From Myxococcales bacterium (GTDB taxonomy: Bacteria > Myxococcota > Myxococcia > Myxococcales > Anaeromyxobacteraceae): a stretch of DNA of 64,000 nucleotides. A program made the translations under genes and the position numbers. Each line of letters begins with the position of its first letter. The stretch's first letter is position 1. The stretch lies in NCBI GenBank assembly GCA_021818285.1, contig JAKAEO010000001.1, forward strand, positions 1 through 64,000, written 5' to 3'. This document shows positions 1-29,713 of this stretch, piece by piece. Under the pieces are notes generated by a model, which was not told where the DNA came from, made no database searches, and was given only the letters and a program-made list of their open reading frames with translations.

Positions 1-300
1 TGGCGTCCGGATGGGACTCTGTCCATCGGCGACGGCGTGATCGACGGGACGGTGCGTCCCACGCCAGGCGCGCTTGCGAAGCCGCTCCGCCAATTTCAGT
101 CGGTGCCGAAGGTCCAGTGTCTCGCCGCGGGCCTTCGCGACCTTCGCGGCGATCGTGCTCGTGACCATGCCCGCCCGCCGTAGCTCCCACAGCGCGACCG
201 CCTGGCGGTGTAGCGCGTCCCTGAGCGCAGCCCTCGCCGAGTCCTCGTCGCGGAGCGCGACGAGGAGATCGGCGAGGGCTGGCGGGGGCACGTCGTTCAC
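1..300 (-). CDS. Partial hypothetical protein, fourth gene of a coupled operon
   Basis: An open frame of 100 codons starts at a GTG at position 300 and runs off the left edge, so the C-terminus is not seen. It begins VNDVPPPALADLLVALRDED and continues with charged, probably helical sequence rich in Arg, Ala and Leu. I recognise no family. It starts only 5 bases after the stop of the HTH gene at 306 and is probably co-transcribed with it. Its start resembles that of the 48-residue protein at 992-1138 (VNDLRQLF), which may mean distant paralogy or a shared translation-start context. Function is unknown. Confidence 0.5.
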   Translation of the reverse strand, partial: MNDVPPPALADLLVALRDEDSARAALRDALHRQAVALWELRRAGMVTSTIAAKVAKARGETLDLRHRLKLAERLRKRAWRGTHRPVDHAVADGQSPIRTP

Positions 301-305
301 GGTGG

Positions 306-995
306 CTAGCGCTGCGGGGGGTGGAAGCCCCATTTCTGTGTCCTTCCGCAACACGTGCAGGCGACCTCCACGGCGGCATAGCCCTTGGCGCCGCAAGTGC
401 AAGAGAACCCGCTCCGGTGCGGCCCCACGAGGCCGCGGATGTACTCCCGGAGTTCCGCGACGTCGGCGGCGATGGTGCGGAGTTGGCTCGACAGCGTGGC
501 GCCCTCGGTGGCCATGTCGAGGCTTGTGGCCAGCTGGGTGAGCGTTGCCTCGGCAGCGGCCACGCGGTCGGCGATGGTCGGGCCCGTGCGCGCGCCCACG
601 GCGCGCACCTCCTCGAACTGACGGTACAGAGCCAACGCTGTCGCGGCCGGAATCTTCAGCCGCTCTATGACGTCCTCCAGGGCCACATTCTGCTTGAACG
701 CTGCGAAGGTCTGCGCCGTGAGGTCGCCGTCGCCCGCGGGCGATGGCGTGCCATTTGCCATGCCAGTGCCATTGCCGGCACTGCTGCCGGCAATGGCAGA
801 GGTATTGGCGGTGGCACCTGTCCGGCGGCTCACCAGGGCCCGGACGGCGTCCACGTCCACTATGGTTGTGCCGTTCTCGGTGCGGGCCGCCAGTTTCTTC
901 GTCTTGATCCAGTTGTAGAGGGTGCGCTGAGAGACACCGGCTTTCGCCGACGCCTGGCCGACTGGAACCTCTGCATTGCCGTTCTTTCCGTTCAT
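306..995 (-). CDS. HTH DNA-binding protein with C-terminal cysteine cluster
   Basis: A 229-residue protein. Residues 9-58 look like a MerR/excisionase-type helix-turn-helix (GQASAKAGVSQRTLYNWIKT followed by a short wing). A low-complexity Gly/Ala/Asn/Ser/Thr linker spans about 60-90, then an acidic helical segment and probable coiled coil to about 190. The end carries a Cys cluster (C199, C201, C213, C215, C216) that could bind zinc. Its ATG overlaps the stop of the upstream 48-residue gene (ATGA, 992-995), so translation is probably coupled. The arrangement suggests a regulator of a mobile element. The Cys cluster may be a zinc ribbon, but I cannot assign a family. Confidence 0.7.
   Translation of the reverse strand: MNGKNGNAEVPVGQASAKAGVSQRTLYNWIKTKKLAARTENGTTIVDVDAVRALVSRRTGATANTSAIAGSSAGNGTGMANGTPSPAGDGDLTAQTFAAFKQNVALEDVIERLKIPAATALALYRQFEEVRAVGARTGPTIADRVAAAEATLTQLATSLDMATEGATLSSQLRTIAADVAELREYIRGLVGPHRSGFSCTCGAKGYAAVEVACTCCGRTQKWGFHPPQR
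768..797. repeat. Perfect 13-bp inverted repeat inside the HTH gene
   Basis: GCCATTGCCGGCA at 768-780 is followed by four bases and its exact reverse complement at 785-797. It sits in the codons of the Gly/Ala/Asn linker (about residues 67-76) of the HTH gene. RNA from either strand could fold into a stable hairpin with a 4-base loop. It has no T-run, so it is not a normal terminator. It may simply reflect repeat growth in a linker. Confidence 0.7.
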
Positions 996-1138
996 CGGTC
1001 TTGCTCCTTTCCTGTGGTGTGGGGCTTCTCAGGTGCGGCTGCGAGGCGTGTACAGGCCTCCCGCAACTGGGCCACTGCCTGACGCAGGTCAGCGTGGGCC
1101 GCGGCGGCTGCCGCGAACAGTTGGCGTAGGTCGTTCAC
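992..1138 (-). CDS. Small coupled hypothetical protein, 48 residues
   Basis: The frame starts at GTG 1138, whose GTGA overlaps the stop of the upstream zinc-finger gene (1135), and its own stop is inside the ATGA that starts the HTH gene. It is therefore embedded in a fully overlapping operon, which is strong support for real translation despite its size. The product begins VNDLRQLFAAAAAAHADLRQ and is Ala/Leu-rich with one Cys, so probably one long helix. No family was recognised. It may be a small subunit partner of its neighbours. Confidence 0.55.
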   Translation of the reverse strand: MNDLRQLFAAAAAAHADLRQAVAQLREACTRLAAAPEKPHTTGKEQDR

Positions 1139-1482
1139 GGGATCTCCTTTCTTGGGTGGCTGCGGGGTTTCGTGGGCCGAAGGCCCAGCGTCTTGAGGGC
1201 GCGCCCGATGCGGGCGCCGGCGCCAGCGAGTTCGTCCAGGGCGAGAAGGAGGTCGGCGCGGGCGGCTGCCCGGCGGTCGGTTACGGCACCGAGGCGGCAC
1301 CGGGTGGAGCAGTACCGGGCGCCCCGGCGGGGCCTGCCTGAACGGCGTCGGGGCAGGGGACCGCCGCAGCGGGCGCAGGGGCCTTCTGCCTGCGCGGGGG
1401 GCGGTACGTGGTCGCTGCTACGCGAAGCAGCGTGCTGCACGCCAGCGAGGCCTTCCTGGCGGTACTGCGGTGGCACGTCCAT
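1135..1482 (-). CDS. Small putative zinc-finger protein
   Basis: A 115-residue protein whose middle carries C36-x2-C39, a basic stretch RRRSGRPRRG, and C58-x3-C62 (ARYCSTRCR). This is typical of small FCS or DUF2116-like zinc ribbons of mobile elements. The C-terminal half is helical (ADLLLALDELAGAGARIGRA) with a basic tail. It is the first gene of the overlapping minus-strand operon that runs left. Its ATG at 1482 lies about 200 bases from the tRNA-derived scar, so the operon probably starts at the edge of the integrated element. The function is unknown, though nucleic-acid binding is plausible. Confidence 0.6.
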   Translation of the reverse strand: MDVPPQYRQEGLAGVQHAASRSSDHVPPPAQAEGPCARCGGPLPRRRSGRPRRGARYCSTRCRLGAVTDRRAAARADLLLALDELAGAGARIGRALKTLGLRPTKPRSHPRKEIP

Positions 1483-1615
1483 GGCCGACTTCCTCCTTGG
1501 CTCTGGGAGCCGAGGAGGCGGTCGTGAACCGTCTCCCGGATGTCTCCCAGAATCTGGGGGAAGTGCAGGGAGCCATGGGGACAGCAGGGGAATCAGAAAG
1601 CGAACCGAACTGGGC

Positions 1616-1679
1616 GACCAGACAGGCGAAATGGCAAAAGGGCGTGGGCCATCGCATGGTTAGTGGAACCTGTCTGGTC
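1616..1679. repeat. 11-bp inverted repeat beside the tRNA-derived att site
   Basis: GACCAGACAGG at 1616-1626 and its exact reverse complement CCTGTCTGGTC at 1669-1679 are separated by 42 bases. The right arm ends one base before the tRNA-like segment (1681). Arm-type sites for recombinase or accessory proteins often lie here, and a structured RNA is the alternative. The 42-base interior has no evident gene. Confidence 0.55.
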
Positions 1680-1680
1680 G

Positions 1681-1703
1681 GGTTCAAATCCTGTCTCCCC
1701 GAC
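1681..1703 (+). other. 3' end of a tRNA-Pro gene, probable integration (att) scar
   Basis: The segment reads GGTTCAAATCCTGTCTCCCC followed by GAC. This is a T-loop (TTCAAAT), T-stem, acceptor strand CTCCCCG and discriminator A, as at the 3' end of bacterial tRNA-Pro (5' strand CGGGGAG). No CGGGGAG, D-arm or anticodon arm is found in the roughly 80 bases upstream, so the tRNA is not complete here, and no CCA follows. Such fragments are left when an element integrates into the 3' end of a tRNA gene. The foreign DNA is then likely on the left, with the restored tRNA beyond the window's left edge. Confidence 0.6.
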
Positions 1704-1706
1704 TCA

Positions 1707-1752
1707 GAAGGCCCTGGAACGACTCGGGAAAACCGATCGTTCCGGGGCCTTC
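1707..1752 (+). terminator. Long terminator-like hairpin after the tRNA-Pro fragment
   Basis: GAAGGCCCTGGAACGA (1707-1722) pairs with TCGTTCCGGGGCCTTC (1737-1752) with a single G-U wobble. An inner TCGG/CCGA stem leaves a GAAAA loop. It starts three bases after the tRNA fragment and probably was the terminator of the intact tRNA-Pro gene. The T-run after it is weak (GACTTATTGTC). Confidence 0.65.
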
Positions 1753-1771
1753 GACTTATTGTCTCAGGCTC

Positions 1772-1909
1772 TTGCACCACTAATGCACCAAACCGCGACG
1801 CCGCCAGCGCACGGAGGGTGCGGGTCTGGGCGAGATCGGGCGCGCGCAACTGGTTGATCCCAGGCCCTCGTCCAAGGGGTGCCACGGTGTGCGGATCGGC
1901 GCCAATTGG
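1772..1909. repeat. Left copy of an imperfect direct repeat (other copy 10289-10363)
   Basis: Two blocks recur in the same order near 10.3 kb. The block at 1772-1793 matches 10289-10310 at 21 of 22 bases. The block at 1878-1907 (starting GGTGCCACGGTG) resembles 10332-10362 (starting GGTGCCACCGTA), and both contain GGCGCCAAT. The spacing between blocks differs (84 against about 21 bases). The stretch carries no intact gene and may be remains of a recombinase/excisionase region. Confidence 0.5.
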
Positions 1910-1966
1910 TCCGATGCCAAGGGGTCGATGGTGCAGGGCATCCGTGTCATGGACCCCCGGCAGGGC

Positions 1967-1993
1967 TTGAACACGGGTAGCACAATGCTACCC
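1967..1993 (+). promoter_or_regulatory. Promoter and operator of the toxin-antitoxin pair
   Basis: A perfect palindrome GGGTAGCACAATGCTACCC (8-bp arms, 3-base spacer, 1975-1993) lies 7 bases before the antitoxin ATG. A possible promoter is TTGAAC (1967-1972), a 16-base spacer and TACCCT (1989-1994), which would start transcription at or near the ATG. No Shine-Dalgarno is visible. The message may be leaderless and the palindrome the autorepression site. Confidence 0.55.
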
Positions 1994-2000
1994 TTTCTCC

Positions 2001-2375
2001 ATGGGCCAGCCCGTCAAGCTCTCCGACGCCCTCGTGCTCGACGCCCGCGTGATGGGCGAGGCGGCCGAGCGCTCCATCGCCAGCCAGATCGAGTTCTGGG
2101 CCCGGGTCGGGAAGGCGGTCGAGGGCGTGCTCCGTGGTGATCGGGTCCTAGCGCTCAAGAAGCGCGGCGAGGCGTTACCGCTCTCGGCGCTCCTCGGGTC
2201 GGTCGACTCGAAGGCTGGTCGCGAGCGCGTGAACGCGCAGCTCGCCACCCGCCCCTTCCCTCACTTCGAGCCGGCGCTGGGCCGGAAGGGCTACCTCGTC
2301 AGGATCGATGAGGACGGGAAGCGCACCGTAGGTCGGTTCGTGAACCGCGAGTTCCGCCCGGCCGGCCGCAAGTGA
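2001..2375 (+). CDS. ParD-like antitoxin
   Basis: A 124-residue protein beginning MGQPVKLSDALVLDARVMGE, then AAERSIASQIEFWARVGKAV. This matches the ParD-like (TA_antitoxin ParD family) pattern of an N-terminal ribbon-helix-helix: VKLSD strand, helix, and an SIASQIEFWA second helix. The C-terminal half (GYLVRIDEDGKRTVGRFVNR) would bind the toxin. It overlaps the toxin start by GTGA (2372-2375) and follows a perfect palindromic operator. It should neutralise the kinase-like toxin and repress its own promoter. The family call is fairly secure from the N-terminus; pairing with a zeta-type toxin is by context. Confidence 0.75.
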   Translation: MGQPVKLSDALVLDARVMGEAAERSIASQIEFWARVGKAVEGVLRGDRVLALKKRGEALPLSALLGSVDSKAGRERVNAQLATRPFPHFEPALGRKGYLVRIDEDGKRTVGRFVNREFRPAGRK

Positions 2376-2956
2376 CCTCGCCCTTCGACGCGCGCCCCAT
2401 CGTCGTCGCGGTGGCCGGCCCCAACGGCGCTGGCAAGACCACCTTCTACGAGGCGCACCTCCAGCCGGCGGGATTGCGGTTCGTCAACGCCGACGAGTTG
2501 GCCCGGGAGTTCCAGGTCGACGCCTACGAGGCGGCCGAGCTGGCCGGCCGCCTCCGCCAGACGCTCCTCGACCAGGGCGAGAGCCTCGTCTTCGAGACGG
2601 TCTTCTTCGACCCGGTGGGCGACAAGATCGCGTTCCTGAAGCGGGCAGAGGGGAGAGGCTACACGGTGGTCCTGTGCTTCATCGGCATCGACGGGCCCGA
2701 GGTGAGCGAGGAGCGCGTCGCCATGCGCGTGCTACAGGGCGGCCATGACGTGCCGACCCGCAAGCTGAAGGAGCGCTTCCCGCGGACCCTCAGGAACCTG
2801 GCCAAGGCCATCCGCGAACTGCCGCACGTCATCGTGTTCGACAACGGCGACCTCGAGCGGCCGTTTCGGCTGGTGGCGGTCTACGAGAAGGGCAGGTTGC
2901 TCGAGAAGCACGCGCCACTCCCGCGGTGGCTGCCGCGCGCAGGGTCCTCATCCTGA
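2372..2956 (+). CDS. Zeta-toxin-like P-loop kinase
   Basis: A 194-residue P-loop protein with Walker A GPNGAGKTT (residues 16-24), NADELA (39-44), FETVFF (74-79) and an Arg-rich region KLKERFPRTLRNL that fits the zeta/AAA_33 kinase fold. Zeta toxins phosphorylate UDP-N-acetylglucosamine and block wall synthesis; other members of this fold act on other small molecules. It starts at a GTG overlapping the antitoxin stop. At 194 residues it is shorter than classical zeta (about 280) but normal for the chromosomal zeta-like group paired with ParD-like antitoxins. The toxic activity and target are inferred. Confidence 0.75.
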   Translation: MTSPFDARPIVVAVAGPNGAGKTTFYEAHLQPAGLRFVNADELAREFQVDAYEAAELAGRLRQTLLDQGESLVFETVFFDPVGDKIAFLKRAEGRGYTVVLCFIGIDGPEVSEERVAMRVLQGGHDVPTRKLKERFPRTLRNLAKAIRELPHVIVFDNGDLERPFRLVAVYEKGRLLEKHAPLPRWLPRAGSSS

Positions 2957-3058
2957 GCCCGCCTGGCGTGGCGCATGCGCTGCCGCCTCAACCCTCACTG
3001 CGGCGAGCCACGCGGTCAGACCGCCCGGGTATGTACTCAGGCCACCCGGAGACCGACG

Positions 3059-6040
3059 ATGCCCAAGGCCGCACCGCAGCGGGACCTCCTCGACTGCCTC
3101 GATTCCGACGCCGTGTACGGCACCTTCGGCGAGCAGGCCATCGCCGCGGGGAGGGAAGCGGTCGAGCGAGGAAGGGTCTCGCGGCCCGACGTCCGGGCCG
3201 CCCGGGCGGAGGCGGTGGTCGTCGGCTCCGATCGGCGCTCCCACCGCGCCCGCCTGGCCTGGGTGAACGGCCGGCTGCTCGCATCCTGCGGCTGCGGTTC
3301 CCCGGGATGCGGGCACGCCGCCGCGCTGGGGCTCCTGCTCGTCGGCGAGGCGGGGCAAGCCGGGGCCAACGAGCCGCCAGCACCCAGCTCTCCGCGCGAG
3401 GCCGAGCGCCGCCGGCGCGAATCGCGCGGCGCCTCGGAGCTGTTCGAGATCCGCCGGCGGCCGGGCGGGCGGCAGCAGCTCCTGGGCGAGTACCAGGTAG
3501 CCTCGCCATCGTCGCGCGCCTACCTCGTCACGCTGCGCGCGCTCGACGCCGCGCACAACGGCTGCACCTGCCCGGACTTCGCCACCAACCTGCTCGGCAC
3601 GTGCAAGCACGTCGAGGCGGTGCTGCACCACCTGCGCACCGACGCGCCGAGGCGCTGGAAGCGAGCCGTGGCCGGCGGGCCGGCAGCGAGCTATCTCCAC
3701 GTGGTCTTCGAGCCGGAGGAGTCGGTGGGGATCCGGCTCTGGGGCGGCGCGAAGCCGGCGGAGCGGCGCTTCGCGGCCCGCTTCTTCGGCCCGGACGGCC
3801 GGCTCCGCGGCGCGCTGGACGACGTCTGGCCGGAGCTCGAGCGGTCGGCGCTGGAGGCCGGAGTGGAAGTCACCGCCGAGGCGGCGCGCCTGGGCGCGCG
3901 GGTGACCGAGGCGGCGCGGGACGAGCGGCGGCGCCGCGCCGTCGAGGCCGAGGTGCGCGCGGCGGGCGCGGAGCAGCCCGGCCTCAAGCGCAAGCTCTAC
4001 CCCTACCAGGTGGAGGGCGTCGCCTTCCTCGCCGGGCGCGGTCGGGCGCTCCTCGCGGACGAGATGGGGCTCGGCAAGACCGCCCAGGCCATCGCCGCCA
4101 TGGCGCAGCTCAGCCGTCGGGGCGAGGTGCGGCGCACGCTGATCGTCTGCCCGGCGTCGCTGAAGCACCAGTGGCTCCGGGAGATCCAGCAGTTCACCGG
4201 GCTCGGCGTCGAGGACGTCATCGTGGTCGGCGGCCCACGCGAGGCCCGCCAGACCGCGTACGCCGGGGCGCCGCCGGTGTTGGTCACGAGCTACGAGCTG
4301 GCGCGCGCCGACGAAGCCGAGCTCGCCGACCTGGCGCCTGACCTGCTGGTCCTCGACGAGGCCCAGCGGCTCAAGAACTGGCGCACCCGGACCGCGGCGG
4401 TCGTGAAGGGCCTGCGGAGCGGCTTCGCCTTCGTCCTCACCGGGACGCCGCTCGAGAACCGGCTCGACGACCTGTACAGCCTGATGCAGGTGGTCGACCC
4501 GCACCGCTTCGGGCCGCTCTGGCGCTTCAACGAGGAGTTCACGACGCTCGACGGGAGCGGCCGGCCCACCGGGTACCGGAACCTCGACGGGCTGCGCGAG
4601 CGGATCGCGCCGGTCGTGCTGCGGCGCCGCAAGGAGGAGGTGCTGAAGGACCTGCCTGCGCGCCTGGTCACGCGGCTCACCGTGCCCATGACCCCGGCGC
4701 AGGCGGCCATCCACGAGGAGGCCGAGGGGGCGGCCGCGCGGCTCCTCGCCATCCTGCGCAAGCGCCCGCTCACCCCGGTCGAGGAGCAGCGGCTCATGCG
4801 CGCCTTCCAGCGGATGCGCATGGCCTGCGACGCGGCGGGGCTGGTGGACAAGAAGACGGCGGGCGCCCCGAAGCTCGAGGAGCTAGAGCGGCTCCTGGAG
4901 GAGATCTGCCTCGGCGACGGCCGGAAGGTGGTGGTCTTCTCGGAGTGGGAGCGGATGCAGGCCATGGCGGCCGAGGTGTGCGAGCGGCTCGGCCTGGGCC
5001 ACGTGCGGCTCCACGGCGGCGTGCCCTCGAGCGCGCGCGGACGGCTCATCGATCGCTTCCGCGAGGACCCGCAGTGCCAGGTCTTCCTCTCCACGGACGC
5101 GGGCGGGGTGGGGCTCAACCTCCAGGCAGCCAGCCACGTCGTCAACCTGGACCTCCCCTGGAACCCCGCGGTGCTGGCGCAGCGGATCGCACGGGTCCAC
5201 CGGCTCGGCCAGCGCGAGGCCGTCAACGTGGTGCTGCTCGTCTCGGAGGGGAGCTTCGAGGAGCGGATGGAGGGGACGCTCGACGGGAAGCGCGCCCTCT
5301 TCGCTGCTGCCGTGGGCGACGACCAGGAGACGGTCGAGCTGGAGCGCTCCTCCATGGCGGGCCGGATCGCCACGCTCCTGTCCGGCGAGTTCGCGGCGAC
5401 CACGGGGAAGCCGGCGGCGGCGCCGGTACCTGAAGATCCAGTCTCGCGGCTGCGCGAGCGGGTGGGGACGGCGCTCGAGCAGGTGGTCCGCCTGCCCGAC
5501 GGGCGGCTCGTCGGCATCGTGAAGGGCGAGGCGCCGGCCGACGCGGTGGACGGCGTGATCCTCTTGCCCGCTCGCGCCGTCGCGGCCCTGGAGCCGCTCG
5601 GGAGTGGCTCGCCGCTCGCGGGCGCCGAGCTGCTCTACCGGGCGCCGCGCGACGCCGACGTGCCCGACCCGGCCCTGGCCGGACGCCGCGACCTGGTGGC
5701 CCTCGGCGAGCGGAAGCGCGTCGGTGCGGCGGCGCTGGTCGCCGCTGGCCAACCCGGCGAGGCGCTGGCGCTCTTCTCGGAGGCGATGGCGCTCGCGTGC
5801 CGCGCCCTCGATCCGCGGGGCGATCCCGGTGCCGACCCGGCGGCGCTCCTGGCGTCGATCCACGGGCACCTCCTCCCGGAACGGCTCCTCCGCGAGGGAG
5901 AGGCGTCGGCCCTCGCGCGCGCATGCGAGGCGGCGCGGGCCTTCGGTGCGTCCCCGGTGGCGCCCCCGGACCGGCTGATGACCGCCGTCGCGGACGACGC
6001 TTCCGCGCTGCTCGCCCGGGCGCGGGCGGGCGTGGCCTAG
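3059..6040 (+). CDS. SNF2-family helicase-like ATPase with two SWIM-type zinc motifs
   Basis: A 993-residue protein. C77-x-C79-x4-C84-x-H86 and C169-x-C171-x10-C182-x-H184 are two SWIM-like zinc motifs in the N-terminal third. The SNF2/DEAD motor follows: DEMGLGKT (334-341), DEAQ (433-436), LTGTPLENR, and QRIARVHRLGQ (708-718). The last roughly 200 residues are helical and unassigned. I chose ATG 3059 over an upstream in-frame ATG because GGAG lies 7 bases before it. Bacterial SNF2-SWIM proteins translocate on DNA and occur both in housekeeping and in defence loci (DISARM- and Hhe-like systems). Here it sits between toxin-antitoxin modules. Its specific role is unknown. It converges with the TPR gene at 6126. 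Confidence 0.88.
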   Translation: MPKAAPQRDLLDCLDSDAVYGTFGEQAIAAGREAVERGRVSRPDVRAARAEAVVVGSDRRSHRARLAWVNGRLLASCGCGSPGCGHAAALGLLLVGEAGQAGANEPPAPSSPREAERRRRESRGASELFEIRRRPGGRQQLLGEYQVASPSSRAYLVTLRALDAAHNGCTCPDFATNLLGTCKHVEAVLHHLRTDAPRRWKRAVAGGPAASYLHVVFEPEESVGIRLWGGAKPAERRFAARFFGPDGRLRGALDDVWPELERSALEAGVEVTAEAARLGARVTEAARDERRRRAVEAEVRAAGAEQPGLKRKLYPYQVEGVAFLAGRGRALLADEMGLGKTAQAIAAMAQLSRRGEVRRTLIVCPASLKHQWLREIQQFTGLGVEDVIVVGGPREARQTAYAGAPPVLVTSYELARADEAELADLAPDLLVLDEAQRLKNWRTRTAAVVKGLRSGFAFVLTGTPLENRLDDLYSLMQVVDPHRFGPLWRFNEEFTTLDGSGRPTGYRNLDGLRERIAPVVLRRRKEEVLKDLPARLVTRLTVPMTPAQAAIHEEAEGAAARLLAILRKRPLTPVEEQRLMRAFQRMRMACDAAGLVDKKTAGAPKLEELERLLEEICLGDGRKVVVFSEWERMQAMAAEVCERLGLGHVRLHGGVPSSARGRLIDRFREDPQCQVFLSTDAGGVGLNLQAASHVVNLDLPWNPAVLAQRIARVHRLGQREAVNVVLLVSEGSFEERMEGTLDGKRALFAAAVGDDQETVELERSSMAGRIATLLSGEFAATTGKPAAAPVPEDPVSRLRERVGTALEQVVRLPDGRLVGIVKGEAPADAVDGVILLPARAVAALEPLGSGSPLAGAELLYRAPRDADVPDPALAGRRDLVALGERKRVGAAALVAAGQPGEALALFSEAMALACRALDPRGDPGADPAALLASIHGHLLPERLLREGEASALARACEAARAFGASPVAPPDRLMTAVADDASALLARARAGVA

Positions 6041-6125: not shown

Positions 6126-7553
6126 TCAGTGTAGCCGCCCACGGCCGGGCCTGCTCGCGAGGGGCGGCGAGGTCACCGACGGGGGACCCTCCGGGCCCCA
6201 CGCGCGCGAGGCGAACTCCCAGGAGCGCAGCTCCTGCATCCGGTCGAAGGCGGCGCGATCGCGCCCCCGACAATCGGCCTGCCATCTGGCGGTCACCAGG
6301 GCCATCTCTTCGAGACGGTCCTTCACCATCGGATGGTCCCACAGGCCGCCGAAGAAGCGCCGGGAAGCCGGGCGGCGCCGGCGCAGGAAGTCGTCGAGGG
6401 TGCGGGCGAGTAGGACGCCGTCGTTGTGGTCCACGGCCTCCTCACGATCTCGCGGCCGCGCGAACCTGGCGCCCAGGAGGCCCCCTACGGTCCTGGGCTT
6501 GTTCAGCACGGCGTGCAGGAAGAGCGCGCGCGCTTCGCCCTCGCGCCCGAGTTCGAAGGCCGCGAAGGCGGCCAGGAGGCTCTCTCCTGGGCTGATCTGG
6601 TGGATGTACCGCGCAGCGTCCAGCGCCTCACGCCAGCGGCCAGTGTCGAGGTACGCCGCGGCGCGGTGGGCGGCGGCCGTGATCGCATCGTCGCACTCGG
6701 AGGCGAGCCGGTCGCAGGTGGTGAGCGCCTCCTCGTAGCGCTTCGCCTCGACCAGGGCGAGGGCGAGGTTCCGCAGCCCTCGCATGTATGGCCGGGTCCT
6801 GTGATCGCTCCACCAGCCGCTCCGTGGCACGCGACGCGGCAGGAGCCGGCGCCCCACCTCGATGGTGCGCTCGAAGTGCTCGACCGCCTCCTCGGCGCGC
6901 CGCCGGTCGAGCGCGATGAGGCCGAGGTAATTGTGACCCTCCGCGTAGTCGGGGAATGCCTCGATCAGCAGGTGGAAGGCCACGGCGGCGCGGCGATACT
7001 CCTGCCGCTCGTACAGGCCGGCCGCGTGCTCCTCGACGTCGGGAGGGACATCGGCGGGCCGGGCCGCAAAGCGCCAATACCAGGCGTTCTCGGTCGTCCA
7101 CTTGGTCTCCGCCTGGGGTGGCGCGGCGAGCCGCCGGCCGATGAGTTCGCGGAGGTACTCGAGCGTCTCGCGCTGCTCGTCGACGAGCAGCCGAGCGGCG
7201 GCCGAGCCGAGCGGATCGGTGAGCACGATCTGCCGCGTGAAGGCGAGGAGCTCTCGCCGGAAGGCGGCACCTAGGCGGGTGGAGGGGTAGTCGTAGGTCT
7301 CCGGGAGAACCTCGAGGTTCTCCGCGATGGCGCGGGAGATCGCCCTCCAGTCGAACCGCACGTCGGGGTGAGCGTGCTCGACGAGGGACTGGAACCGGGA
7401 GGCGTCTCCCTCCGCGCCTCTTCCGAGCGCGGCCATCGCCTCGCCCTTCGAGTAAATAGTGAAGAGGATCTGCTGCTCGACCTTCTTCGTCTCCGGGCTG
7501 CGAACGCCTCGGACGATGGCGATCTGGTTCCCCCGTCTCCGCACGTAGGCCAT
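6126..7553 (-). CDS. TPR-repeat protein of the island
   Basis: A 475-residue protein starting MAYVRRRGNQIAIVRGVRSP, then ETKKVEQQILFTIYSKGEA. Several TPR-like helix pairs lie between about 185 and 350 (LYERQEYRRAAVAFHLLIEA, HNYLGLIALDRRRAEEAVEH, GLRNLALALVEAKRYEEALT, AAYLDTGRWREALDAARYIH). There is no signal peptide or membrane segment, so it is probably a cytoplasmic scaffold. The ATG has a good ribosome site (GGGAGGAGGA). It lies downstream of the SEC-C gene, separated by a strong inverted repeat, and may be part of the same unit. I can assign no enzyme activity. Confidence 0.75.
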   Translation of the reverse strand: MAYVRRRGNQIAIVRGVRSPETKKVEQQILFTIYSKGEAMAALGRGAEGDASRFQSLVEHAHPDVRFDWRAISRAIAENLEVLPETYDYPSTRLGAAFRRELLAFTRQIVLTDPLGSAAARLLVDEQRETLEYLRELIGRRLAAPPQAETKWTTENAWYWRFAARPADVPPDVEEHAAGLYERQEYRRAAVAFHLLIEAFPDYAEGHNYLGLIALDRRRAEEAVEHFERTIEVGRRLLPRRVPRSGWWSDHRTRPYMRGLRNLALALVEAKRYEEALTTCDRLASECDDAITAAAHRAAAYLDTGRWREALDAARYIHQISPGESLLAAFAAFELGREGEARALFLHAVLNKPRTVGGLLGARFARPRDREEAVDHNDGVLLARTLDDFLRRRRPASRRFFGGLWDHPMVKDRLEEMALVTARWQADCRGRDRAAFDRMQELRSWEFASRAWGPEGPPSVTSPPLASRPGRGRLH

Positions 7554-7594
7554 GGGGCCGTCCTCCTCCCGGCGGCAGTCGCGCTGCCGGAGAG

Positions 7595-7632
7595 GCCTGT
7601 TGTGTCATGACGTGGTATGGAACACAACAGGC
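7595..7632. promoter_or_regulatory. Perfect 11-bp inverted repeat between SEC-C and TPR genes
   Basis: GCCTGTTGTGT (7595-7605) and ACACAACAGGC (7622-7632) are exact reverse complements with a 16-base spacer. The repeat lies 42 bases upstream of the TPR start codon and 48 bases downstream of the SEC-C stop. It could be an operator for the TPR gene, or an attenuator or terminator hairpin. No T-run follows on the minus strand, which favours an operator. Confidence 0.6.
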
Positions 7633-7680
7633 AACGCTCGCGGAGCGCCTCGGTCATGGCGCGTGCGGGCGAGCGTCACC

Positions 7681-8238
7681 TCACCGGCAGCACTTCTTGA
7701 ACTTCCTGCCACTTCCGCAGGGACAAGGGTCGTTCGCACCAGTCCTTGGCTCCCCCCGACGAAGGGGCGTTTGCGCCGGGAATGCGGCCCTGAAGGTGGG
7801 GTCGTCGTGGAGCGCGCTGCGGACCCTGTGGTGGTCGGGATGTGCGGGGTCATCGACGACGGCCTTCCAGGCGAGGTAGTGCCGCTCCAGGCGGGCCTGG
7901 TAGGTAGGGTCGTGGGTGATCATCGACTGGAACTGCGCCAGCAGGTCGCCGGCCATCTCCGACTGCGGGTTGAGCGGGTCGAGGAAGGTCTGCGGCTCGT
8001 CCCCGTGCGGTGGTCCGGGTGGCTCGAAGGCGTGGTTGACGGTCGCTGCGACCGCGCGGGTTCCCTCGTCGAGGACGCTGAGCAAGACGCGTCGGCAGTC
8101 GCACCGCGGCTCGACGCAGTAGGCCTCCAGGAAGAGGAAGCGCCGGCTCGGCAGCCGCTCGTGGTTCATCGGGCGGAGGGTCCGGCACTCCCGCTCGGCG
8201 AGCTCGGGGAAGAGCAGGTGGAACGGTCGCATCGTCAT
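7681..8238 (-). CDS. SEC-C metal-binding protein
   Basis: A 185-residue protein ending in the SEC-C zinc motif [16 protein letters not shown] (about 169-184), the same C-terminal module found on SecA and many small accessory proteins. A second Cys group [11 protein letters not shown] lies near residue 40. The body (about 60-150) is helical and unassigned. Its ATG overlaps the stop of the 42-residue gene upstream (ATGA, 8235-8238). Stand-alone SEC-C proteins are frequent in islands and may bind protein or RNA partners through zinc. The function here is unknown. Confidence 0.8.
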
Positions 8239-8363
8239 GTCTGAGCCCCGGCGGCTGTGCCTACCTCATCGTCGAACGTGGCGGACGCTCTGCAGCCGAG
8301 GCTCGCGCCGGCAGACCGCATCTCGACGAGGCGCCGAAACCCGCGGCGCTGCGTCTCGCTCAT
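8235..8363 (-). CDS. Small coupled hypothetical protein, 42 residues
   Basis: The frame starts at ATG 8363 behind GGAAGGTGGG and stops inside the ATGA that starts the SEC-C gene. The product is [20 protein letters not shown] followed by a polar tail, with one Cys. The ribosome site and exact overlap support real translation. It may act as a leader peptide coupling translation into the SEC-C gene, or as a small partner protein. No family was recognised. Confidence 0.45.
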
Positions 8364-8410
8364 GATTCGCCCACCTTCCTGAGCTCGCCGGGCCGGCAGC
8401 GGCAGGACCG

Positions 8411-9253
8411 TCACGAGGCAGTGCCCGGCGCTCCAGGGCCCTTCCACGGGTCGCCGGGAAGCAACGACAGGATCTCGCGGCCGACGCGCAATCCCGCGTC
8501 CGCCGCGTCGTAGTCGGCCTCGGCCCCAGGCACGAGAAGCGGGCCGATGTCCCACGTGAAGGCCGGGTCGTTCAGCTTCGCGGCGAGGTTCTCCTCGAAC
8601 TCGGCACGCGACACCCGCTGCCCGGCCGTAGTCAGGTAGGCCCCGAAGCAGTGCACGATCTGGCGGGCTTCGATGGACGGGACGCGCGCCAGGGTCGTCG
8701 CGAGGTCGTAAAGGTCACGTCCCTTCTTCCGCTGGTAGAGCGCCCGCAGCTTGGTGCCGAGGAGCTCCTCCAACGCGTAGATTCGAACGCCTGCGCGGCC
8801 GGAGAACCACGGGTTCTCGACGGCGAACGTCCGCTCCTCGAGCGGAAGAACGTGGAGGTGCTCCCGGGTATTGATCTCGATCTTAAGCCGGAGCGGCGTC
8901 GTGGGCGGCGCCTCGGACTGGAACCGGTAGATGAAACGGACGGCGGCAGCGGTCTGTTCTCGTTTCGGTTTGCCGAGCCAGGGGTCCAGCGTCTGGCGAA
9001 GGGCGCTCATGATCGGGCCGATGGCCCCCTGCTCCGCCTGGACGAGGTCGATGTCCTCCGAGTACCTCGTGGCCGGAGCGAGGACGACCTTGTGGAGCGC
9101 CGTGCCGCCGCGGAAGAGCAGTGTCGAGCCGAGGAGCTGATGCCGGAAGATCTCGACGATGGCCCTGGAGAGCACGAGGTCCTGTTCGACCTGCGCGTCC
9201 GACGCCCACGGCGCGTGCGCGCGCCAGCCCGTGACGTGCGCGCGAGGGATCAT
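8411..9253 (-). CDS. abiEii: AbiEii-type nucleotidyltransferase toxin
   Basis: A 280-residue protein with the nucleotidyltransferase signature FRGGTALHK (47-55) and SEDIDLV (65-71, metal-binding D67 and D69), followed by LKIEINTRE and the RDLYDL motif of the AbiEii/DUF1814 family. AbiEii is the toxin of type IV abortive-infection and toxin-antitoxin systems and adds nucleotides to RNA targets, shown for tRNA acceptor stems in relatives. Its ATG overlaps the stop of the AbiEi antitoxin gene (ATGA, 9250-9253), as is usual for this pair. All catalytic motifs look intact. Confidence 0.9.
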   Translation of the reverse strand: MIPRAHVTGWRAHAPWASDAQVEQDLVLSRAIVEIFRHQLLGSTLLFRGGTALHKVVLAPATRYSEDIDLVQAEQGAIGPIMSALRQTLDPWLGKPKREQTAAAVRFIYRFQSEAPPTTPLRLKIEINTREHLHVLPLEERTFAVENPWFSGRAGVRIYALEELLGTKLRALYQRKKGRDLYDLATTLARVPSIEARQIVHCFGAYLTTAGQRVSRAEFEENLAAKLNDPAFTWDIGPLLVPGAEADYDAADAGLRVGREILSLLPGDPWKGPGAPGTAS

Positions 9254-10074
9254 CGGTCGATCTCCACCTGCTCGTTGACGTCGACCCTCCACCGTGGGTC
9301 TTCCTGCCGGATCGGACTCCGGGAACCTGGGCGGAGCAGGACCCGGCGCGGTCGTTGCGCGGAGACCCAGGCGGCCATTCGCTTCGCGGCCGAGGCGGCG
9401 CCCACCGAATCGAGGAGGAGGCCGAGCCGCTGCACGTGAGCGATCTCGACATCCTTGCGGGCCACCGCGAGGAGTCTCTTCGCGTCGAGCTTCTCCGCGA
9501 GCTCCGAGAGCACGGTCGCGACGTTGCCGAGGTGGCCGGTGCGCTTGACATACCGGACGAGGTCGAGGGCGGTCGCCTCCGGAGTGGAGACCCGCATGGA
9601 GCCGGTCTGGGTCTTCACGTCGACCACCGGTGTCGAACTCGCGGTCGCCTTGGTGAAGAACCGGATGCGCACCTGTCCCGCTTTGACCGGACGGAGCGGC
9701 CCGTCGGTCACGACCTGGAACTCCTGGGGCTGCTGGTGGGCCGCGCCGTGGAGCGATGCGGCGGACAGCAGGCCCACATAGTAGGGCTTCCCCTCGAAGC
9801 GCATGAGGTCCGCGATGAACCAGTCCGGAGGAGGGGCGCCGGCGCTCCGGTACTCGGCCGGGACGATGACGTAGAAGCCGCGGCGCGGAACGGCGAGCCG
9901 TCCCTTGGCGGCCAGGCGGCGAACGGCGGCCTCCAGCGCCTCGGGGGTTGAGCCCAGCTTCTGCAGCGCCTCGGAGCGATCGAAGGAATAGCGTCCCTGT
10001 CCCTGGAGGGAGTCCGCGAGGGCGGAGAGACGGAGGCTTGGAGTCTTGCGTGGCATGCGCGGAAGCCGACACAT
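9250..10074 (-). CDS. abiEi: AbiEi-type antitoxin and repressor
   Basis: A 274-residue protein with an N-terminal winged-helix segment (FDRSEALQKLGSTPEALEAA, then VRRLAAKGRLAVPRRGFYVI) and the AbiEi C-terminal domain (YYVGLLSAASLHGAAHQQPQ, VSTPEATALDLVRYV). AbiEi counteracts AbiEii and represses its own promoter by binding inverted repeats. A strong promoter and a perfect inverted repeat lie at its 5' end. The start may be ATG 10074, which overlaps the repeat, or ATG 10056 (MPRKTPSL); neither has a clear Shine-Dalgarno. Confidence 0.87.
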   Translation of the reverse strand: MCRLPRMPRKTPSLRLSALADSLQGQGRYSFDRSEALQKLGSTPEALEAAVRRLAAKGRLAVPRRGFYVIVPAEYRSAGAPPPDWFIADLMRFEGKPYYVGLLSAASLHGAAHQQPQEFQVVTDGPLRPVKAGQVRIRFFTKATASSTPVVDVKTQTGSMRVSTPEATALDLVRYVKRTGHLGNVATVLSELAEKLDAKRLLAVARKDVEIAHVQRLGLLLDSVGAASAAKRMAAWVSAQRPRRVLLRPGSRSPIRQEDPRWRVDVNEQVEIDR

Positions 10075-10126
10075 AGTGTCGGGATATGCGAATCATGTGT
10101 ATAGGCTAATTCATCGGGTTCTGCAA
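10066..10126 (-). promoter_or_regulatory. abiE promoter and AbiEi operator
   Basis: Read on the minus strand: TTGCAG (10126-10121), 17-base spacer, TATACA (10103-10098), a near-consensus sigma-70 promoter. Just downstream, CCGACACATAGTGTCGG (10066-10082) is a perfect 7-bp inverted repeat with a 3-base centre, where a repressor would block early transcription. AbiEi proteins are known to autoregulate through such repeats; the assignment here is by position. Confidence 0.65.
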
Positions 10127-10378
10127 ACGTGCCGCAGAGTGGGGAAGTAAGGCAGAAGGGACGCGAATCGAATTCGAGACCCTGAGGGTCGGCACGGTTC
10201 CCGCCTGGACGAGCCTGTAGACGGTCGCCCGAGAGACGCGCAGAAGGGCGGCGACCTCTCGGACGGTCAGCAGATCGCCCGGTTCGGCTTGCACCACCAA
10301 TGCACCAAACGGCGTCGCATCCGGTGGGCTTGGTGCCACCGTATGCGATCCGGCGCCAATGCGGAAGTCGAGGTTCAC
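10106..10378 (-). CDS. Excisionase-like HTH protein
   Basis: A 90-codon frame whose residues 38-72 form a typical excisionase/MerR helix-turn-helix (LLTVREVAALLRVSRATVYR, then LVQAGTVPTLRVSNSIRVP). The first roughly 37 residues have no known fold and lie in the direct repeat shared with 1772-1909, so the true start may be further in (for example at VVQAEP). No ribosome site precedes GTG 10378. Its 3' end overlaps the abiE promoter. It is probably a recombination directionality factor or a remnant of one, marking the right side of the island. Confidence 0.6.
   Translation of the reverse strand: MNLDFRIGAGSHTVAPSPPDATPFGALVVQAEPGDLLTVREVAALLRVSRATVYRLVQAGTVPTLRVSNSIRVPSALLPHSAARLQNPMN
10289..10363. 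repeat. Right copy of the imperfect direct repeat
   Basis: This is the counterpart of 1772-1909: 10289-10310 differs at one base from 1772-1793, and 10332-10362 resembles 1878-1907. The copies share orientation and enclose about 8.4 kb holding two toxin-antitoxin modules, the SNF2 protein and the SEC-C/TPR genes. Confidence 0.5.
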
Positions 10379-12205: not shown

Positions 12206-12913
12206 ATGACCATGGGCCAGCGAGGGCACGTCCGCGTGAAGGCGAGGGAGCGCGTCGCCGCGACCCCGCGGGGCTCGCGAGTTCCGGTGGCGACGCGACG
12301 CGAGCGGGCCGCGGCGCGGACCGACACGCGCAAGGCGCTGGTGTGGTGCGGGACCGAGTTGCTGACGGAACGCGGGTTCCAGATCACCGGCATCGAGGAG
12401 GTGCTGCAGCGTGTCGGCGTTCCGAAGGGCTCCTTCTACCACTTCTTCGGCAGCAAGCACGAGTTCGGGCAGGCGGTGATCGGGAACTACGAGGAGTACT
12501 ACGCGCGGAAGATGGATCGCATCTTCGGCAACGCGTCGCGCGCGCCCCTCGCCCGCTTGAGCGACTTCGTCGAGGACGCGACGCGCGGGATGGTGAAGTA
12601 CGACTTCCGGAAGGGTTGCCTGATCGGCAACCTCGGGCAGGAGATGGCGAGCCTGGACGACTCCTTCCGGCGGCAGCTCGAGGCGGTGCTGACGTCGTGG
12701 GAGGACCGCGTCGAGGCCTGTCTGGACGAGGCGATCCGGCGCGGGGACCTCGCGGGCGACATCGACGCTCGCGCGCTCTCCCGGTTCTTCTGGATCGGGT
12801 GGGAGGGCGCGATCCTCCGCGCGAAGCTCACTCGATCCGTGCGACCGCTGAAGCAGTTCAAGAAGTTGTACTTCGAGAAGATCGCCGTGCCCATCCGCAG
12901 CCCGCGCTCCTGA
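12206..12913 (+). CDS. TetR-family regulator of the acyl-CoA catabolic operon
   Basis: A 235-residue protein. A basic N-terminal tail (1-38) precedes the TetR HTH (TGIEEVLQRVGVPKGSFYHF, 61-80, then FGSKHEF). The C-terminal domain (FRKGCLIGNLGQEMASLDDS) resembles the AcuR-type group that senses small acyl compounds. Start ATG 12206 is the first in frame; MGQRG at 12212 is an alternative. It is first in a co-directional cluster (15 bases before livG) and probably represses it until an acid or its CoA ester appears. The ligand is unknown. Confidence 0.85.
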   Translation: MTMGQRGHVRVKARERVAATPRGSRVPVATRRERAAARTDTRKALVWCGTELLTERGFQITGIEEVLQRVGVPKGSFYHFFGSKHEFGQAVIGNYEEYYARKMDRIFGNASRAPLARLSDFVEDATRGMVKYDFRKGCLIGNLGQEMASLDDSFRRQLEAVLTSWEDRVEACLDEAIRRGDLAGDIDARALSRFFWIGWEGAILRAKLTRSVRPLKQFKKLYFEKIAVPIRSPRS

Positions 12914-23764: not shown

Positions 23765-25324
23765 TCACCGTGCCGTGCGCGTCACGGCGTGCGCCCAGCC
23801 GCATGCCTCGCTCGTGCCCAGGTCACACGCCAGGCGCGCCTCGCCGATCGCTTCCGGCGTCCGTCCCGCACGCCTCAGCGTGGTGGCGCGTTCCAGGTGC
23901 GCCCGTCCGTGCAGGGGCTGCCGCTGCAGGAAGCTCGCCCAGAGAGCCAGCGCGTCGTCGAACCGCTTCAGACCGTTGAGGACGTAGCTCAGCCTTCGGC
24001 ACCGAGGGAAGTCGTCGGGGAAGCGCGTGGTGGCCTCCCGCTCGCGGGCCAGGTCTTCGGGGCCCGGGCGAGAAGCCCCGGTGATGGCCGCGGACCGGCG
24101 AGACAGCACCTCGCGATTGGTGGGTGCGAGATCGGCGGCCAGGTCATAGACGCGAACGGCGTCGTCCAGGCGGCCGGCTCGCTGGTGCTGCCAGGCCTCG
24201 TGGACCAGGCCCCTGACCAGGTAGTCGAGCGCAGGCTTCACCTTCCTCCCGACCGGGTCGATGCGGAGGCCGTCGATGACGTCGAGCGCCGCACTCTCCC
24301 ATTGGCGAAGTCTCAGGTGTGCGCGCGCGCGGGCGAAGAGGATGCGGGGGTGGCCCGGTCGCAGGACCGCCGCTCGTTCGAGGTCCCGGAGCGCCGCGTG
24401 GGCATCGCCGTAGTCACGCTCGAGCGCGCCCTTGTTGAGGAGGGCCTCCCACTCGTCGCCCACCTCGCAGGCGCGCGTGGCGGCCGCGATCCCTTCCTCG
24501 TAGCGCCCCTCCCAGGAGAGCATCATGCTTCGGTCGATCTCCAGGGTACCCGCAAGGAGCCGGAGGCGCGGGTTCGGAACCTCCTGCGCCGCCCGGATGA
24601 AGGACTCCAGTTCCTCGTGGCTTCCTCCCCACCGGGGAGCGAGTCCGAGGAGGTACGCATGGCGAACCTCGTAGCAGGTGGGGCAGCGCGCCAGGGCCGC
24701 CTGCATGACCTCGCGGCGCAACGCCGCCTTGCCGCCGCCGAGATAGATCCCGAGAAGTCCCACCCTCGCAGCGGCCAGCGTCGGTCGAAGTTCCAGCGCG
24801 CGATGCAGGTCGCGCTCGGCGCGGTCGAACGCCCTTCCCATGGCGGCGAACCGTTGCGCGCTCGTCGCCGAGGCGACGGCGGCGCCCCGGAGATCCCAGC
24901 CAGCGGCCCGCCAGTGAAATCCGCGAGCCAGGTATGGCGCAAAGGACCCAGGAGACGCGGCGACCCATGCGTCCAGCGAATCGAGCAGGTCCGACTCGGC
25001 GCTTCCCAGCGCCTCGGCCGCCTCGAACGGCCAGAATTCGAGCCGCGGGTCTCCCTCGAAGTCCGCCTGGAGCCGTTCGATGTAGCCCGTCAACTCGGCG
25101 AACCGCGCGTGCAGGAGCAGGCTCCTGAGCGCGGCGCCGTCGACGAATCGCAGGGGGTAACCGTAGGCGTCGGTGCCTGGGTCGCCGACCATGGGAAGCA
25201 CCTTCGGCAGCGGAGCGGGGGAAATCCAGGCCAAGGTATCGATTCGGTCCAGGGCAGGTTCGGGTGCCGGCGGCACGACAGCCAGGAGGACCCCCACCAA
25301 GGCGGTCGGAACGCACGCGAACAT
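23765..25324 (-). CDS. Exported DUF4034/TPR-like protein
   Basis: The gene encodes about 519 residues from ATG 25324 (an ATG one codon earlier is possible); GGAGG lies 7 bases upstream. An N-terminal signal or anchor (MFACVPTALVGVLLAVVPPA) is followed by a DUF4034-like domain (LLLHARFAELTGYIERLQAD, FAPYLARGFHWRAAGWDLRG) and TPR-like repeats to the end (LRDLERAAVLRPGHPRILFA, AVRVYDLAADLAPTNREVLS). Probably periplasmic or membrane-tethered and involved in protein contacts. It stands alone, between the dehydrogenase and LysR genes, on the same strand. Function unknown. Confidence 0.75.
   Translation of the reverse strand: MFACVPTALVGVLLAVVPPAPEPALDRIDTLAWISPAPLPKVLPMVGDPGTDAYGYPLRFVDGAALRSLLLHARFAELTGYIERLQADFEGDPRLEFWPFEAAEALGSAESDLLDSLDAWVAASPGSFAPYLARGFHWRAAGWDLRGAAVASATSAQRFAAMGRAFDRAERDLHRALELRPTLAAARVGLLGIYLGGGKAALRREVMQAALARCPTCYEVRHAYLLGLAPRWGGSHEELESFIRAAQEVPNPRLRLLAGTLEIDRSMMLSWEGRYEEGIAAATRACEVGDEWEALLNKGALERDYGDAHAALRDLERAAVLRPGHPRILFARARAHLRLRQWESAALDVIDGLRIDPVGRKVKPALDYLVRGLVHEAWQHQRAGRLDDAVRVYDLAADLAPTNREVLSRRSAAITGASRPGPEDLAREREATTRFPDDFPRCRRLSYVLNGLKRFDDALALWASFLQRQPLHGRAHLERATTLRRAGRTPEAIGEARLACDLGTSEACGWAHAVTRTAR

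Positions 25325-27208: not shown

Positions 27209-29713
<2,505 letters not shown>

Follow-up and report, generated by a model that had tools for sequence, protein, structure and literature searches.

A 26-base piece of a tRNA-Pro(CGG) gene at positions 1681-1706 of the DNA analysed here (the window, 64,000 nucleotides, bases 1-64000 of contig C165) is very probably the attR of a genomic island integrated in the T-loop region of tRNA-Pro(CGG). We read the fragment as attR because an intact copy of the gene is present on another contig of the same genome, C266, and because a related genome, G004, holds the empty site. The assembly is 87% complete and comprises 3.5 Mb in 318 contigs. The features surrounding the fragment are as follows.

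306-995, minus strand: HTH_17-like gene on the element side (HTH_17 below the Pfam cut-off)
1135-1482, minus strand: small orphan ORF on the element side
1531-1551, plus strand: putative arm-type integrase sites (P arm), two copies of GTCTCCC 11 bp apart
1552-1680, plus strand: class B attachment-site arm on the element side, bearing repeats of the GGGGA type
1615-1680, no strand: perfect 12-bp inverted repeat (1615-1626 and 1669-1680) abutting the fragment
1681-1706, plus strand: 3' end of tRNA-Pro(CGG), made up of the T-loop half, the acceptor 3' strand and a short stretch of flank, probable attR core, GGTTCAAATCCTGTCTCCCCGACTCA
1707-1752, plus strand: hairpin native to the tRNA-Pro 3' side, terminator-like but lacking a T-run
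1771-1801, plus strand: arm-type repeats of a second att class, a GCACCA pair 11 bp apart
1878-1935, plus strand: degenerate class A att core (CCAAGGGGTCG), a probable old scar

The fragment, the inverted repeat and the hairpin

The fragment begins with the T-loop half and stops shortly beyond the discriminator; the gene is broken at the T-loop. tRNA calling returned nothing at 1681-1706, and therefore the T-loop half and the acceptor 3' strand alone are present; the 3' end of tRNA-Pro recognised in a preliminary description of this DNA is thus real. With up to three mismatches allowed, the first 24 bases of the fragment had one match in the window (expected number, 0), and a scan of the genome at the same tolerance placed the sole other copy inside the intact tRNA-Pro(CGG) on C266, the full 26-base sequence being exact (26/26) in both. 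ARAGORN also called a tRNA-Gly of 97 bases and odd shape at 29598-29694, which is likely a false call; the sequence was inspected as a possible relative of the fragment and set aside, having no likeness to a tRNA 3' fragment.

On its left the fragment is abutted by the inverted repeat, previously described as 11 bp long and found here to be perfect over 12 bp. Inverted repeats of at least 11 bp arose in none of 2000 mononucleotide shuffles of 1528-1680. The sequence of the repeat was not conserved among homologues, and its complementarity was conserved in part only. On the right, the hairpin had a minimum free energy of -41.8 kcal/mol (z -8.9), and 0 of 200 shuffles were equally stable. The strong hairpin of the preliminary description therefore stands, but the terminator label is tentative because the hairpin has no canonical T-run, and a terminator scan found none.

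The intact gene and the empty site

A complete tRNA-Pro sharing the 3' bases of the fragment had been predicted, and such a gene was found with all 26 bases matching, but on contig C266 (21-95, minus strand), which terminates 20 bp beyond the gene. Since C266 stops there and the window opens at base 1 of C165, the two have no direct join, and the last 18 bases of C266, used as a query for contig joining, matched C266 alone. The fragment and the intact tDNA thus each border a contig break, and the gene order of G004 is consistent with an island between them. In G004 an intact tRNA-Pro(CGG) is followed by a hairpin flank 85% identical to window positions 1676-1753. Upstream of the tRNA gene are two genes, presumably peptidases, with homologues on C266 (66% and 63% identity), and downstream is a TPR gene 82% identical to window positions 6126-7553 which, as in the window, lies on the strand opposite to the tRNA. 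From the hairpin to the TPR gene, G004 and the window carry different genes. A homologue of the SNF2 gene at 2975-6040 stands beside the tRNA-Pro fragment of a further genome, G009.

From the G004 gene order on both sides, C266 and the right side of the window are thus the two flanks of one ancestral locus, which appears to have been split by an insertion in the tRNA gene. The comparison with a relative that had been proposed as a check yielded an empty site with the same hairpin and with homologues of genes from both flanks; the contrary arrangement, a relative with the fragment only and without the left-hand genes, was not what G004 presented. Several points count against the attR reading: the two tRNA halves sit on separate contigs and the assembly is 87% complete, neither contig has an integrase, the larger element-side gene lacks relatives in the 23 other family genomes, and the genes just past the hairpin are not those of G004. 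Between the peptidase-like genes and tRNA-Pro on C266 we also observed ABC transporter genes (208-3492; locus L004 of the window's genome, G000), which we take to be of the branched-chain amino acid (liv) type and which are absent from that place in G004.

The mechanism is textbook and the attR is ordinary in kind. A tyrosine integrase would have recombined the island into the T-loop region of tRNA-Pro(CGG), and the attP of the island, carrying a tRNA 3' half of its own, would have restored the gene on the far side, at what is today the terminus of C266. The original 3' half and the native hairpin would in this way be pushed rightwards to window positions 1681-1752, and the attP arm of the island (at least 1531-1680), left of the fragment, would be where the integrase binds. 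We infer both that C266 and the window flank a single island and which kind of integrase moved it.

The attachment-site arm

The roughly 150 bp to the left of the fragment (at least 1531-1680) are, to judge from the alignment of related sites, the attachment-site arm of the island. Among the tRNA-Pro fragments of related genomes two classes were distinguished: class A fragments have about 20 more tRNA bases, from the anticodon half, and class B fragments begin at the T-loop. The window fragment belongs to class B, with a GTCTCC pair at 11-bp spacing about 150 bp upstream of the T-loop core. Nine class B sites from seven genomes (G000, G002, G005 twice, G007 twice, G015, G016 and G018) aligned without gaps over 180 bases, the GTCTCC pair keeping a constant distance from the T-loop in 9/9; left out of these nine were L073 (G001) and L077 (G003), which are related but diverged, and two tmRNA sites on contig C217 of the window's genome. 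DNA identity of the arm at 1552-1680 to those of G005 and G016 was about 71%. The T-loop that the class B arm abuts belongs to a tRNA-Pro fragment at some sites and to a fragment ending like tRNA-Gly at others; the 3' part of the G007, G015 and G018 sites is TTTCCCGCTCCA, which we take to be a tRNA-Gly end. The arm repeats are putative integrase binding sites, and the GTCTCC signature can locate islands even without their integrase.

This arm also bears on how the fragment originated. A tRNA pseudogene, decayed or duplicated with no integration involved, would account for a gene that is present in part only, but the gene is interrupted precisely at the T-loop, an arm conserved at eight other sites adjoins it on the left, and the 3' flank matches the intact locus in G004, whose empty site disfavours such an origin; we regard it as exceedingly improbable. 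With the intact tRNA copy, the empty site and the conserved arm in place, the fragment marks one end of an integrated element, as had been proposed.

It is also very unlikely that the 150 bp encode a structured RNA whose 3' end resembles a tRNA, instead of forming an arm to which a recombinase binds. The ungapped conservation and the inverted repeats that differ in sequence in some homologues would fit such a gene, but single-sequence folds were not clearly better than shuffles (five sequences, z -1.68 to +0.86), nothing in Rfam matched at the gathering score, and the best helix in a hand scan of the nine sites had three covarying pairs, a result reached by 4/60 column permutations. RNAalifold on six left-arm sequences gave 24 pairs, three of them with both sides changed. 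We therefore dropped RNA structure in the left arm as a claim, given folds close to those of shuffles and a three-pair helix matched by permutation. Integron attC sites were likewise considered, because two G007 copies stand 1.26 kb apart near small two-gene units, which we assume to be toxin-antitoxin-like pairs; the idea was rejected as the copies end in tRNA 3' halves with no attC core visible on inspection against the consensus.

The element side and the integrase

Small genes of mobile type had been described to the left of the fragment. This is weakly supported: the gene at 306-995 has a match to the excisionase family phrog_66 (E 5e-4) and an HTH_17 similarity below the cut-off, and the ORF at 1135-1482 has no Pfam family; relatives of the 306-995 gene were found neither in viral contigs nor in genome contigs nor in 23 other family genomes. 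An integrase had been expected farther left together with the restored tRNA-Pro. The intact tRNA-Pro is on C266, but a Pfam search for Phage_integrase found none on C165 or C266, and most of the island lies outside these contigs. That the integrase of the element itself did not turn up is explained by the contig end at which the window opens. The genome has seven Phage_integrase matches, one of them below the cut-off, all on contigs other than C165 and C266.

At homologous sites in G003, in the C217 tmRNA island and in Myxococcales MAGs, an integrase gene does converge on the restored tRNA or tmRNA gene, as had been expected. Elsewhere in the window's genome the motif GTCTCCN5GTCTCC occurs only at C217:3232, 46 bp past the 3' terminus of tmRNA, at a point that also falls within the last part of a convergent tyrosine integrase gene (Pfam Phage_integrase confirmed). 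C217 also has fragments of the tmRNA 3' end, one at 12899 with a GTCTCC/CCTCC arm upstream of it and one at 24713. The integrase of G003, convergent to tRNA-Pro(CGG), is 54% identical to that of C217, and CTGCTCC arms at both ends of an interval of about 127 kb make this genome a complete tRNA-Pro example. In the MAG scan, which covered six of seven loci (L137, at 25% identity, was left out), a complete tRNA lay no more than about 400 bp from where the integrase gene ends at 4/6 named loci: tRNA-Pro(CGG) at two, tRNA-Glu and tRNA-SeC at one each. At the Glu locus GTCTCCAGAATGTCTCC stands between the tRNA and the integrase.

A profile of six integrases detected no integrase gene between tRNA-Pro and the class B site of G016 (L070, L071), a genome that carries Mrr, HNH, TIR and TPR genes, nor in the G002 stretches L075 and L076. 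By analogy, these integrase-less islands of G016 and G002 resemble CIMEs (cis-mobilizable elements, formed by accretion) in having cargo between att sites and no integrase found; for the window island the comparison extends to the one element end that the window contains. That a single integrase subfamily with shared GTCTCC arms mobilises in trans integrase-less defence and toxin-antitoxin islands at tRNA-Pro, a tRNA-Gly-like gene and tmRNA in this family is speculative and unlikely; if true, the conserved att arms would play the part that cassette ends have in integrons, in an exchange system that is dispersed.

Older scars to the right of the hairpin

Within 200 bp of the hairpin lie the GCACCA pair (1771-1801), similar repeats to which occur beside tRNA-Pro fragments in G011, G006 and G015, and a degenerate tRNA-Pro core at about 1905-1928. 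Positions 1878-1995 are 77% identical to L049, which retains 18 intact bases from the anticodon half of tRNA-Pro. The GCACCA pair and the degenerate core suggest an older scar to the right of the hairpin. The block at 6126-10074 encodes TPR, SEC-C, AbiEii and AbiEi proteins and in G015 is flanked by two tRNA-Pro fragments. From the older att traces and this G015 arrangement, the locus is probably a worn tandem array.

The fragment could accordingly be the inner boundary of such an array, with a class B island on its left and the remains of at least one class A element on its right, and not the outer edge against the old chromosome. We give this slightly less than an even chance, and it is compatible with the attR explanation. 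The GCACCA pair and the degenerate core near the hairpin favour it, as do the G015 block and another GCACCA arm pair (10288-10318), which overlaps an HTH_17 (excisionase-like) gene at 10106-10378 and beside which no tRNA piece was found. Conversely, the hairpin resembles the native one of G004, no second intact fragment occurs rightwards in the window (up to three mismatches), and the TPR and SNF2 genes, which other genera also have next to tRNA-Pro, may be resident. The tRNA-Pro locus is a heavily used integration hot spot in the Anaeromyxobacter-related family, where 16/24 genomes had at least two matches, some possibly at other sites, to a query ending in the tRNA-Pro 3' half.

Two toxin-antitoxin pairs were observed in this region. 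A ParD-like antitoxin/zeta-toxin pair (2001-2956) is directly to the right of the scar, and a pair on contig C90 of G015, 84% and 81% identical to it, adjoins a class A half core. An AbiEii/AbiEi type IV pair occupies 8411-10074.

Comparison with known islands

The Islander description (PMC4383910) sets out the tDNA-island signature, crossover sites in the T-stem and anticodon, tandem arrays and integrases extending across attP. The locus described here is similar in its restored intact tDNA and its probable tandem array, and would be so in the downstream displacement of the 3' fragment without change of orientation and in the use of a tyrosine integrase. Its tDNA and fragment are on separate contigs with no integrase seen between them, so the Islander filters would reject the window candidate as it stands. 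The ssrA islands of Dehalococcoides (PMC3146451) show T-loop insertion, tandem islands with 3' repeats, a motif adjoining the repeat, an integrase reading into the target gene and islands without an integrase, all of which have likenesses here; the DsiB protein is compared there with Ccr recombinases, whereas here the integrases belong to Phage_integrase (PF00589) and tRNA-Pro serves as the target. Recombination in a T-loop, that of tRNA-Ala, is also given for Ms6 (PMC1762012). Among the best 15 of 1,232 publications on Anaeromyxobacter and islands, none concerned the tRNA-Pro locus, which does not prove absence.

Within the same genome, the C217 tmRNA island shares with the window the GTCTCC arm repeats, the T-loop core and the 3' fragments of the target, but differs in having tmRNA as its target and in the presence of an integrase, an HTH_17 gene and XhoI-type restriction cargo. 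This island (L129, G000:C217, 3192-12725) encodes the integrase, the HTH_17 protein, an XhoI-type endonuclease, an Eco57I-type methylase and an AAA ATPase, and the second tmRNA fragment lies about 12 kb beyond it. The class A integrase genes L073, L081, L083 and L085 extend across the tRNA core, so that their C-terminal tails are translated tRNA sequence, sense (L073) or antisense.
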